A DNA stretch of 39,085 nt. Source: Aquidulcibacter sp. GTDB lineage: Bacteria; Pseudomonadota; Alphaproteobacteria; Caulobacterales; Aquidulcibacteraceae. Below are positions 24,242 to 35,717 of this stretch, one piece after another; the first letter of the stretch is position 1, and every line of letters starts with the position of its first letter. A model generated the notes under the pieces. It was not told the DNA's origin. It saw only the letters and a list, made by a program, of their open reading frames with translations, and did not search any database. The stretch is taken from contig JAPZTJ010000030.1 in the NCBI GenBank assembly GCA_027532555.1, positions 1 to 39,085 on the forward strand. The letters are read 5' to 3'. Position numbers and translations under genes: made by a program.

Positions 24242-25096
24242 TTAAGCCAGTTCAGCAATCGCCCAGCGTGCGTCGACGCGGTAGGAGGCGAGGAAAGCCT
24301 CTACCTTGCCGCCATCTAACCCGTCGGCATTGGAAAGCTCGGCTGCGTGAATACCACCTGCAACAAACAGACAATCCAGCTTTTGGCCATGCGCTCCGGC
24401 CACATCAGTCTGCACGCCGTCGCCAATGCATAACAGGCGCTCGCGCGCGAGTGGCTTGCCAGCCAGACGCTCGGCCTCGGCAATCGTCAGGTCATAAATC
24501 GGTGCATAGGGCTTGCCCGCCATGATGACGGGGCCACCCAATTCTTCATAAATATCAGCCAAAGCCCCTGCGCATGGGATCAAATGGCCACCAAATTGCA
24601 CCACCCGGTCTGGATTGGCGCAGATGAAAGGCAGGTTGCGGGCGGCCAAGGTTGCCAACTCTTCGCGGTAGCTTTCGGGCGGCTCACTCAAATCGTCACG
24701 CAAGCCCGTGCAGATGACATAATCAGCGGTCTCAGCAGGGCGGAAGTCGACCGGCAGGCCATCATACAGCCCTTCGTCCTTCGAGGGGCCGATCTTATAG
24801 CCACGTGGACCGCGCTTTTCGATCTCTGCTCGTGTGGCATCGCCTGAGGTCACGATCGCATCCCAGGCATCGCGGCGCACCTGAAGCGCTTCCAATTGCT
24901 TCGGGATCACATTGGACGGGCGCGGCGCATTTGAGATCAGCACCACAGGCTTGCCCAACTCACGAAACGCGGCAAGCGCGTTACAGCCCGCTTGATAAGC
25001 CGCCCGGCCATTATGGATCACCCCCCACACGTCACATAGGACGGCGTCATAATGATCAGCAATATCGGCGAGGGTGTGGATGATTCGTACAGTCAT
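24242..25096 (-). CDS. TIGR01459 family HAD hydrolase (subfamily IIA)
   Basis: A HAD-superfamily phosphatase of 284 residues. Motif I is CDVWGVIHNG, with an Asp-x-Trp in place of the common DxDG. Motif II is VVLISNAPR and motif III/IV include AGKPYAPIYD and CIGDGVQTDVAGA. The NagD-like cap module lies between them. TIGR01459 is common in alphaproteobacteria and has no settled substrate; NagD relatives act on nucleoside monophosphates and sugar phosphates. It is the first gene of the minus-strand run. Confidence 0.92.
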   Translation of the reverse strand: MTVRIIHTLADIADHYDAVLCDVWGVIHNGRAAYQAGCNALAAFRELGKPVVLISNAPRPSNVIPKQLEALQVRRDAWDAIVTSGDATRAEIEKRGPRGYKIGPSKDEGLYDGLPVDFRPAETADYVICTGLRDDLSEPPESYREELATLAARNLPFICANPDRVVQFGGHLIPCAGALADIYEELGGPVIMAGKPYAPIYDLTIAEAERLAGKPLARERLLCIGDGVQTDVAGAHGQKLDCLFVAGGIHAAELSNADGLDGGKVEAFLASYRVDARWAIAELA

Positions 25097-33869: not shown

Positions 33870-34856
33870 ATGCCGGTTGAAGTCCTGCTTGAAAACCTAG
33901 TCTCACCCATAACCTTGGCATTTTTGTTGGGCATGATCGCCACTTTGATCAAGTCAGATCTAGAGATACCCGAACCGGTCATCAAAATTTTCGCGATCTT
34001 CTTGCTGTTCTCCATTGGCCTGCAAGGTGGCCAAGAACTGGCTGGCGTGGCCTTTGCCGATATCGCCAACGGGCTGGCCGTTACAGCGGCACTGATTTTC
34101 CTACTGCCCCTCATAGCCTTTTTGATTGCGAAGTTCGTGTTGCGCTTGGACACACCCAATGCGGCAGGCGTTGCAGCCCTTTACGGCTCAGTCTCGTCGG
34201 TGACCTTTGTGGTCGCGCGCACCTATGCTGAGGGCAAGGGCACGCCGATGGACGGTTATGTCACCGGGCTTGTGGCCTTGATGGAGCTGGCAATATTGGT
34301 CGCGCTGTTTTACGGACGCTTCGTGCTCAGTCGGTCTAGTGGGGATAAGGGTAAGCTCACCGAAATCCTGATGGAAACCCTGCGCGGACGCGGCCTTGTC
34401 TTGCTTGGCGGTGGCCTTCTGATCGGCGGTCTGATCGGCGAGACGAATTTCGCCAAGATTGAGCCCTTCTTTGTCGATCTGTTCCGGGGCGTGCTCGTCC
34501 TCTTCCTGCTAGAAATGGGCATGACAGCGGCGCGGCATCTGAAAGAGTTTGCCAAAGTAGGCCCGGCCATGGCGGTTTTTGGGATCGTCATGCCGATGGT
34601 ACATGGTGCCCTCGCCTCGGGCCTTGCAACGTGGGCAAGCCTGCCATTAGGGTCGGCCTTTGTCATCGGGGCGGTTGCGGCTTCCGCCTCTTACATCGAC
34701 GCCCCAGCAGCCGTGCGCGCCACCTTTCCAACCGCGAACCCGGCCATATACCTCACCTCATCGCTAGGCATCACCTTTCCCTTCATGCTGATCATCGGGG
34801 TGCCGACCGTGTATCAAATAACAGTCTTGTGGCGTGGGGTGTTGGGGGGTGGTTAG
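33870..34856 (+). CDS. SbtA-like sodium-dependent bicarbonate transporter family permease
   Basis: A 328-residue membrane protein with about ten helices in two inverted halves. Family motifs are KIFAIFLLFSIGLQGGQEL in the first half and the serine-rich YGSVSSVTFVVA and VAASASYIDAPAAVRATFPTANPAIYLTSSLGITFPFML, which supply the Na+ and bicarbonate site in SbtA. In cyanobacteria SbtA is a HCO3-/Na+ symporter; homologues in heterotrophs may serve anaplerotic bicarbonate uptake. The usual SbtB partner is not here. GAGGAG lies 7 nt before ATG 33870. A LysR gene is divergent. Confidence 0.88.
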   Translation: MPVEVLLENLVSPITLAFLLGMIATLIKSDLEIPEPVIKIFAIFLLFSIGLQGGQELAGVAFADIANGLAVTAALIFLLPLIAFLIAKFVLRLDTPNAAGVAALYGSVSSVTFVVARTYAEGKGTPMDGYVTGLVALMELAILVALFYGRFVLSRSSGDKGKLTEILMETLRGRGLVLLGGGLLIGGLIGETNFAKIEPFFVDLFRGVLVLFLLEMGMTAARHLKEFAKVGPAMAVFGIVMPMVHGALASGLATWASLPLGSAFVIGAVAASASYIDAPAAVRATFPTANPAIYLTSSLGITFPFMLIIGVPTVYQITVLWRGVLGGG

Positions 34857-34965
34857 GGCCGTATCTATGTCGTTAGGAGCGCTTCTAAGTGGACAGGTCT
34901 TCTCCCATCTCCCAGAGTGAGAGGGGGTTTAAAGCCGCCTGAAAAATTCTTCCCCCACACCCCTA

Positions 34966-35180
34966 GACAGACACCTCAAACTAAGGCGCTATGGTGATCC
35001 CATTAGCAACTGAAAGGAGGTGATCCTATGTCTCATTGTCTGCGCCTTAGTGAAATGTCTGTCGGGATCCCTTCGGAGGTGAAGGCTTAACGATTGTAAG
35101 CCTTTCTTCGAATTGAGATCGGGCCGTTTCACCAGTCTGGCAATGGAAAGGTCGCTGGGCAACCAGCGACCTTTCTTGTT
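34966..35180 (+). ncRNA. Structured short transcript unit with an extended anti-16S leader
   Basis: A candidate small transcription unit on the plus strand between sbtA and the GNAT gene. GACAGACA (34966-34973) plus ACTAAGGCGC (34980-34989) pairs with GCGCCTTAGT (35042-35051) plus TGTCTGTC (35056-35063): an 18-bp two-part stem separated by internal loops of 6 and 4 nt. The closing loop holds GAAAGGAGGTGATCC (35012-35026), exactly complementary to 15 nt at the 16S rRNA 3' end, then a 20-codon ORF. Downstream are hairpin AAGGCTTA/TAAGCCTT (35082-35089, 35097-35104) and a strong terminator. Whether it acts as an RNA, a leader peptide or both is unknown. The promoter is not identified. Confidence 0.55.
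35028..35090 (+). CDS. Possible 20-codon leader peptide or small protein
   Basis: An ATG at 35028 opens a 20-codon frame ending TAA at 35090. The peptide begins MSHCLRLSEM and ends PSEVKA. The GGAGG is 7 nt from the ATG, and its surrounding 15-nt match to the anti-Shine-Dalgarno is the strongest in the window. A second GGAGGTGA occurs inside the frame at 35075-35082, with no start codon suitably placed after it. Expression of the peptide is inference; the sequence has no membrane segment or recognised motif. Confidence 0.45.
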   Translation: MSHCLRLSEMSVGIPSEVKA

Positions 35181-35184
35181 TTTC
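35147..35184 (+). terminator. Strong intrinsic terminator of the 34966-35180 unit
   Basis: AAAGGTCGCTGG (35147-35158) and CCAGCGACCTTT (35163-35174) form a perfect 12-bp stem capped by a GCAA tetraloop (GNRA type) and followed by CTTGTTTTTC. The T-rich tail is on the plus strand, so it ends plus-strand transcripts. On the minus strand, downstream of the GNAT gene, only a short TTT follows. Confidence 0.88.
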
Positions 35185-35717
35185 TAAAGCGTCTTGCCCA
35201 TGATTTTCAGAGGGATGATCGCGCCATTTTTGGCGTGCTTTTCGATCACTTCAATCAACTCATAACCACAGCGACGATAGAGCGGTTCACCCGCCAATGT
35301 GGCCCCCATTTGCGCGCTCTTGAAGCCCTCGGCACGGGCAGCGGCTTCGCCGGCATCAATGATCATCTGGCCAATGCCGCGGCGTACATGGTCTGGGTGG
35401 GTATACATGGCGCGGATGCGCGCAGGCTCGGTTGCGGGGTCGAGGAGGCGATTATCCCGCCCAGCGCTGTGATCGCCGCCATAGAGGGTCCCACGCCGGC
35501 TCCATCCGCCACAGCCGACGATTTTGCCGTCTTCTTCCACAACCGCAAAATAGGTACCGTCTTCGATCAACTGGGTGTCGATCCCCATGGTCTCATAACT
35601 GCCTTCTACTTGTTCAGGCGTCAGAAACTCATTCATCAATTGCCCGATGGCCAAGCCCATCAAGACCTTCATTTCGGGCATATCGTCAGGGGTTGCAACG
35701 CGCAGTTTTAAGACCAT
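35184..35717 (-). CDS. GNAT family acetyltransferase
   Basis: A 177-residue N-acetyltransferase. The acetyl-CoA binding motif A is [32 protein letters not shown], with the R-x-x-G-x-G/A pattern RRGIGQ near residue 114-119, and motif B follows in [13 protein letters not shown]. Acceptor substrate unknown. ATG 35717 overlaps the lysK stop by 10 bp, so expression is coupled to lysK, but a functional link (for example lysine or tRNA acetylation) is not shown. Confidence 0.9.

Follow-up and report, generated by a model that had tools for sequence, protein, structure and literature searches.

A conserved relative of the Caulobacter RNA CC2171 in Aquidulcibacter whose behaviour resembles ribosome capture with peptide-independent translation

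Introduction

The Rfam entry RF01867 (CC2171) is typed as a small RNA (sRNA) of Caulobacter, and its source is said to be the original Caulobacter paper by Landt from 2008. A literature search on CC2171 and Caulobacter, with most subscription papers lying outside of it, returned no assigned function for this RNA. Further small RNAs and small proteins described for related bacteria include BjrC68 (RF02353), an sRNA of the Bradyrhizobiaceae; CrfA, a Caulobacter RNA known to sponge sRNAs with a CCUCC motif, aR8 (SisA-D) being an example (PMC12559287); and SEP1 of S. meliloti, a protein of 23 aa with a pI of 4.18, which is conserved in Rhizobiaceae, was seen on a Western blot and showed the highest translation efficiency among 54 high-confidence small open reading frames (ORFs) (PMC10117765). 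A Shine-Dalgarno site is missing from 75.4% of the protein genes of Caulobacter, where ribosome profiling found the ncRNA regions to be untranslated, except for two earlier ncRNAs that were found to be translated and were reassigned (PMC4117421).

Here, we analyzed a 39,085-nt stretch of Aquidulcibacter sp. DNA (contig JAPZTJ010000030.1, positions 1 to 39,085; the window), in which a sequence-only reading had pointed to a small structured RNA or leader peptide unit at 34966-35184. That observation proved to be largely real and is partly confirmed: the unit is conserved and is related to CC2171, and its behavior looks like ribosome capture combined with translation that does not depend on the peptide. 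Among the literature matches listed, no description of the unit was found in the accessible text.

Results

The unit lies on the + strand, in a 327-nt gap between a gene for an Sbt_1 bicarbonate transporter upstream (33870-34856, +) and the convergent gene for a GNAT acetyltransferase (35184-35717, -), both recognized by Pfam scan. From 5' to 3', it comprises a 15-nt complement of the 16S rRNA tail, GAAAGGAGGTGATCC (35012-35026), which we refer to as the clamp; a 20-codon ORF, MSHCLRLSEMSVGIPSEVKA, with an ATG start and a TAA stop (35028-35090); and an intrinsic terminator with a 12-bp core, a GCAA loop, and a T-rich tail (35147-35182), for which the terminator scan counts 14 pairs at 35145-35176 with the T-rich tail thereafter. 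The ORF and the terminator had both been read from the letters alone and are both present, the terminator being strong. A long-range stem, H1, was absent from that reading and is already part of the CC2171 consensus structure in Rfam; its 5' arm CATTGTC (35034-35040) begins at codon 3, its 3' arm GGCAATG (35139-35145) adjoins the terminator, and both arms were located from folds without the upstream arms as well as from the Rfam consensus. The stretch 34966-35184, which includes an outer stem that is considered doubtful (see below), folds better than 200 of 200 shuffled sequences (z = -5.82). Taken as a whole, the unit is best explained as an independent transcript about 180 nt long, with a putative start upstream of the clamp, representing a divergent CC2171 relative.

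At Rfam's own cut-offs, no match was found in the window. When searched in E-value mode, RF01867 aligned from model position 1 to 159 of 159 with 35004-35173 on the + strand (E-value 4.2e-12, 60.2 bits), a score below the gathering score of 75 bits. Intermediates with the same architecture were found above this threshold in the same order (G046, 90.7 bits; G042, 78.8 bits). As to whether an already described Rfam family with an assigned function would account for the locus, a point raised by the sequence-only reading itself, the full-length match to CC2171 bears out the first half, although below the cut-off, and no assigned function was found for the second. The unit is a divergent CC2171 relative and not a new RNA family as such.

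All 8 other genomes of the genus that were searched carry the unit, with 77-94% identity. Within the class, RF01867 matched 85 of 385 genomes at E <= 1e-3, a count that includes some chance matches, since 6 of 20 lower matches that were read proved false; 13 genomes were above the cut-off. In a phylum sample of 200, matches were obtained for 33 of 51 class genomes, which had been taken from a kinship-sorted list, and for 0 of the remaining 149, which were assumed to be outside the class. The motif AAAGGAGGTGATCN{1,3}TGTC was present in 72 of the 385 class genomes at 73 places, which may include some ordinary genes, compared to 1 match of the reversed motif, and a slightly looser motif was present in 55 of 101 genomes of one further class family (reversed control, 4 matches). 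The only motif-positive genome of the class sample with two copies is G072 (C1 places 805113 and 2922049), the other 71 having one. Separately, three motif loci are labelled non-alphaproteobacterial (L219 and L256, Gemmatimonadetes MAGs; L281, a Woeseiaceae MAG), reflecting binning errors, transfer, or chance. The core was also found in at least 3 of 120 IMG/VR contigs classed as viral (L027, L032, L115), two of which resemble the Bradyrhizobium type, and either provirus carriage or host flank could explain this.

Comparisons across clades, whose names are labels given to motif-defined groups after organism titles, started from 193 occurrences of the core. A set of 157 units omits 36 occurrences, which either had an overly long ORF or received no terminator from the simple finder; genuine units (e.g., of sphingomonads) seem to be numerous among them, and several are ordinary genes. 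A non-redundant set of 138 units was used for the duplex, helix, and clamp-accessibility tests. The RF01867 cut-off was passed by 5 of 18 loci searched across the clades, all of them CC2171-like, and sphingomonad- and Bradyrhizobium-type units are taken to be linked to the others by clamp, ORF, stem, and terminator.

As the sequence-only reading had claimed, the clamp is an exact 15-nt complement of the alphaproteobacterial 16S tail GGATCACCTCCTTTC, located just 5' of the 20-codon ORF. This tail was read from a Rhodobacter 16S gene (L389), outside the window's genus; Rfam identifies this locus and a second one from Azospirillum (L390) as SSU rRNA. A search for the 16S tail of the window's own genus gave no match in 9 of 9 genus genomes, and none of the other GGAGGTGATCC places (4, in three genus genomes) looked like 16S. 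The duplex of GAAAGGAGGTGATCC with the 16S tail was calculated at -28.0 kcal/mol, the best of any 15-mer on either strand of the window; the runner-up among independent sites, GGGGGGTGATCC at 25027 (-), reached -23.4 kcal/mol. Within the 3.49-Mb assembly, AAAGGAGGTGATCC occurs once and its reversed control 0 times.

Motif-fetched sets, in which the conservation of clamp and TGTC is partly by construction, cannot show clamp conservation, which was therefore checked on RF01867 matches, with the reservation that the model includes the clamp and conservation among its matches is also partly by construction. The 30 best RF01867 loci, window included, read GGAGGTGATC in 24 cases and GGAGGTGGTC in 6, the latter change keeping the 16S pairing through G-U. 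From the 20 lower matches, which had been chosen for lacking the search motif, 14 were judged by eye to be homologues; their clamps comprise 2 exact 15-mers, 6 with G-U-tolerated changes only, and 6 with a mismatch or deletion. In one AT-rich stretch (L339), GAAAGGAGGTGGTCC is kept and much of the remainder differs. Across these homologues, the clamp is conserved as a predicted 16S match, partly through G-U changes.

This pattern bears on the suggestion, made in the sequence-only reading, that the unit sponges CCUCC-motif sRNAs. For sRNAs of this kind, which include aR8, CrfA provides a precedent in Caulobacter (PMC12559287). Such a function would explain the GGAGG core, but by-eye comparison with the aR8 core UUUCCUCCCU, as given in the accessible part of PMC12559287, indicates that its pairing is confined to GGAGG. 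It leaves the conserved flanks, GAAA and UGAUCC, unaccounted for; these, together with the G-U changes, fit 16S. We consider a sponge improbable.

The start codon of the ORF varies among the 157 units (GTG in 81, ATG in 72, TTG in 4), and its frame is kept. Among 67 CC2171-like ORFs, a CYTGGR anchor was present in 34, and its distance from the start fell into a single frame in 33 of them (34, 37, 40, or 43 nt; 41 nt in the last one), whereas a GACAATGG-like anchor downstream of the stop, present for 53 of the 67, lay at distances from it that were spread over the three phases (18/18/17). All 17 of the 17 Rhodobacteraceae-type ORFs are 18 codons long and end at this one place with three types of stop codon (TAG 9, TGA 4, TAA 4). 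The same length was found in 23 of 24 sphingomonad-type ORFs, ending in TAA or TGA, a count that covers ORFs of 12-40 codons; 27 ORFs have a sphingomonad-type start, and the 3 outside this range are one that is cut off at a contig end and the longer ORFs of L186 and L301. In these two loci, the clamp precedes ORFs of 56 and 59 codons, respectively (near 1515 in L186 and near 6772 in L301, both +), which start with MSHGA and look signal-peptide-like to the eye, with a terminator after the L186 ORF. They could be derived units, or else ordinary small genes that make use of the clamp.

The kept frame has to be weighed against the view that the unit is a trans-acting base-pairing sRNA, the ORF being a side effect or a protection of the RNA. 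Rfam types CC2171 as an sRNA, and a structured, intergenic unit that has its own terminator and is nearly always present as one copy per genome would be in keeping with this, but a passenger ORF is not expected to keep its frame and stop, and the most conserved stretch matches 16S over its whole length. A trans-acting sRNA thus seems unlikely, though less so than a sponge.

The main rival takes the opposite view of the ORF, regarding the unit as a microprotein mRNA with a very strong ribosome-binding site and the peptide as its product. Conservation of frame, length, and stop is what this predicts, and the highly translated SEP1 of S. meliloti may, as far as the accessible part of PMC10117765 goes, be the same ORF. 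Moreover, 30 loci from the further class family, at least one of which (L379) looks like a chance match, encode peptides of 18-29 aa with pI values from 4.05 to 12.0; that this family is the Rhizobiaceae and that SEP1 is the ORF of the unit are guesses on our part. A pN/pS ratio of 0.67 in the window's genus points in the same direction, on 7 ORFs, which are too few to decide on peptide constraint.

The peptides themselves, however, differ widely between clades. For codons 2-18, dN/dS was 1.40 for the sphingomonad type (23 ORFs) and 0.78 for the Rhodobacteraceae type (17 ORFs), and in-frame pN/pS was not lower than out-of-frame values in either (1.30 versus 0.91 and 0.75; 0.82 versus 0.74 and 0.78), i.e., the two clades tested gave no sign of purifying selection on the peptide. 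Of 8 clade-and-length sets, a single one had its highest variability at the third codon position, and by a small margin. Furthermore, a hairpin-like GCARCC motif is found in 26 of 30 MSS-type units, nearly always near the end of the ORF, with one unit having it behind the stop. Rhodobacteraceae-type units carry it directly behind the stop (16 of 17), and none of 69 CC2171-like units has it. Such a shift across the stop between clades is as expected if conservation concerns the RNA and not the peptide. A microprotein mRNA is the strongest of the alternatives, yet still a rather unlikely one, and the ORF looks to be selected for being translated and not for its peptide, which appears neutral where tested.

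In single-sequence folds of most clades, a large stem extends from just after the start codon to the segment adjoining the terminator. Its arms are CUCAUUGUC/GACAAUG in CC2171-like units, UCAUGGUUCAGC/GCUGACCAUG in the sphingomonad type, and GUGAG-type/CUCAC-type in the MSS type. RNAalifold by itself, run on an alignment of 54 of the 58 CC2171-like units, did not choose H1, and the hairpin that it proposed between clamp and codons (together with the terminator) was not accepted, as its columns are nearly invariant and its pairs uninformative. H1 was tested after RNAalifold as a structure named by us. In the 54 homologues, 95.4% of its cells are paired; H1 and terminator together reach 93.8%, compared to 27-62% after sliding, and both partners are altered in 87 cells, compared to 23.6 in shuffles. 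These double changes belong mostly to the terminator, where all 10 pairs counted have changes on both sides; in the stem itself, this applies to 2 of 8 pairs.

In a first duplex test, the arms of a unit gave -26.8 kcal/mol with each other, compared to -20.0 in cross pairings and -19.2 when shuffled, and 50 of 138 units had their own arms in the best 5%. When the test was repeated with GC-matched partners from other clades, this number was 87 of 138 (101 in the best 10%), comprising 48 of 56 CC2171-like, 9 of 13 sphingomonad-type, 15 of 22 MSS-type, 0 of 2 Bradyrhizobium-type, and 12 of 32 remaining units, with a weak result for the Rhodobacteraceae type (3 of 13). A score for uninterrupted helices, which is too strict for bulged stems, gives H1 strong backing in no clade other than the CC2171-like one (41 of 56), as opposed to 1/13, 0/13, 1/22, and 0/2 in four other clades and 5/32 in the rest. 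What stands out is a predicted long-range stem that joins the first codons to the terminator-side segment and whose sequence changes from clade to clade.

The region preceding the clamp shows no conservation beyond a CAACA-like sequence. TA-type -10-like boxes are most frequent there at 26-28 nt before AAGGAGG (44 counts in 138 units), which places the probable transcription start some 13-16 nt ahead of that motif. On the basis of this family-wide peak, a putative promoter of the window was assigned to TAGACA (34964-34969) and TATGGT (34990-34995) on the + strand; its -10-like box starts 24 nt before AAGGAGG, its spacing of 20 nt is long, and a generic sigma-70 scan found no promoter. The 18-bp two-part stem that the sequence-only reading had drawn around the clamp can be found in the letters and also forms in the minimum-energy fold. 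Of 9 genus members, 6 have it in their folds, and it is lost in L125, L128, and L129. Since its 5' arms are sited at the -10-like boxes and the Rfam match starts at 35004, these arms are probably not transcribed; the outer stem was rejected as a functional part of the RNA on account of the promoter position and its loss in 3 of 9 members. Two other details of the earlier reading exist but are not kept: the second GGAGGTGA at 35075-35082 is shared by L122-L124 and replaced by GGAGGCGA, GGAGGCGC, or GGAAGTGG in L125-L129, and the small upstream frame at 34991-35023 is lost in L129. This frame and both 5' stem arms probably lie in the promoter.

Gene order was determined for 120 loci, among which the window's genus is represented several times, with 5 more being incomplete; genes were called by a simple ORF and codon-position score, and single cases may be wrong. 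This allowed us to address the proposal, contained in the sequence-only reading, of a regulatory leader, i.e., a cis-acting leader or attenuator of the next gene. The short ORF, the alternative pairings, and the terminator resemble attenuators, and the next gene is codirectional in 57 loci, in 45 of them within 150 nt of the terminator. It is, however, convergent in 63 loci, as in the window. Moreover, Pfam scans of 20 neighbors, two of them the window's own, revealed no family common to the downstream genes, and 8 of the 9 downstream genes scanned outside the window had Pfam matches, all to different families. As the neighboring genes vary, with no constant codirectional gene downstream, the unit is not considered a leader; this candidate was rejected because of gene order, and we regard it as extremely improbable. 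An observation of a different kind is that a Vut_1 transporter gene lies just upstream in 3 of 3 Rhodobacteraceae-type loci scanned (L211, L227, L247), a clade in which the clamp is predicted to be sequestered.

The predicted openness of the clamp, compared to units with shuffled bodies, differs between clades. It is higher in CC2171-like (0.58 versus 0.38) and MSS-type units (0.54 versus 0.40), slightly higher in the sphingomonad type (0.45 versus 0.39), and lower in the Rhodobacteraceae type (0.09 versus 0.43) and in 2 Bradyrhizobium-type units (0.30 versus 0.37). For a Shine-Dalgarno-mimic switch, in which the clamp would pair within the same RNA, the mean z was -0.92, and 36% of the 138 units were in the best 10% of shuffles, which makes such a switch a weak possibility.

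Discussion

For a unit that is nearly always present as a single copy, is independent of its neighbors, and combines clamp, stem, and ORF, the most fitting interpretation is that translation initiation would determine the state of the RNA. It would be a ribosome-gated RNA under selection for 30S capture and for being translated, a reading that we hold to be about as probable as all others taken together. The short 5' tail would pair with nearly the whole free 16S 3' tail and thereby capture a 30S subunit. Directly behind the clamp follows the mini-ORF, from about codon 2-3 of which the long stem would shut against the terminator-side segment, so that the stem would begin inside the mRNA path of a docked ribosome. 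When initiation is easy, ribosomes would open the stem and translate to the stop; when it is scarce or blocked, the 30S subunit would be parked at the clamp with the stem closed. The fold of the RNA, and hence its stability or trans activity, could in this way report ribosome availability, and selection would act on the capture of ribosomes and on translation across the stem as far as a fixed stop, and not on the peptide.

An RNA that engages ribosomes had been among the suggestions of the sequence-only reading. It is the suggestion that fits the data best, with binding predicted from complementarity, and the interpretation given there is, as a whole, partly supported. Several points count against a ribosome-gated RNA: the clamp is predicted to be closed in Rhodobacteraceae- and Bradyrhizobium-type units; RNAalifold by itself did not choose H1, which the helix score backs strongly in one clade and the duplex test weakly in the Rhodobacteraceae type; the pN/pS ratio of the window's genus leaves room for some peptide constraint there; and the Caulobacter ncRNA regions are described as untranslated, two reassigned ones apart, in the accessible part of PMC4117421.

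More tentatively, and with a probability that we place clearly below that of the ribosome-gated RNA as such, the unit might be under selection for holding the 3' tail of 16S rRNA and act as a gauge of ribosome availability, in which 30S capture at a maximal Shine-Dalgarno sequence and translation of a throw-away ORF would switch the RNA between shut and opened. If true, evolution would have retained a translated RNA for translation itself, and not for a product or a downstream gene. A little-studied sRNA entry becomes a widespread alphaproteobacterial element with a testable ribosome job. It offers a stand-alone gene in which selection on translation can be separated from selection on the peptide, as well as a natural case for the consequence of an mRNA pairing with nearly the whole free 16S tail.

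Comparison with known systems places the unit at different distances from them. RF02353 (BjrC68) gave a weak match over the terminator half (E-value 0.0012), but with 22.5 bits against a cut-off of 39 and in a part without clamp or ORF; at the gathering threshold, it matched none of 5 Bradyrhizobium loci searched. CrfA and aR8 (SisA-D) of Caulobacter share with the unit a purine-rich sequence that faces a CCUCC motif (PMC12559287), but only GGAGG is common to the unit and the aR8 complement, and the accessible part of PMC12559287 describes neither an ORF nor a match of 16S length for CrfA. Among dual-function and leader RNAs, rnTrpL is likewise a small RNA with a tiny ORF (PMC10117765). It acts as a tryptophan attenuator, and the accessible part of PMC10117765 describes its peptide of 14 aa as functional, whereas the unit lacks a constant downstream gene and showed no constraint on the peptide in the clades examined. 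The closest system is CC2171, with which the unit shares the full-length alignment, the 16S clamp, the UGUCUCAUUG start region, the consensus stem of the CAUUGUC/GACAAUG type, and the terminal CAAUGGA with the terminator. It differs from CC2171 in scoring 60.2 bits where 75 are required, and in that the Rfam label is that of an sRNA, whereas the conservation of the frame points to translation.
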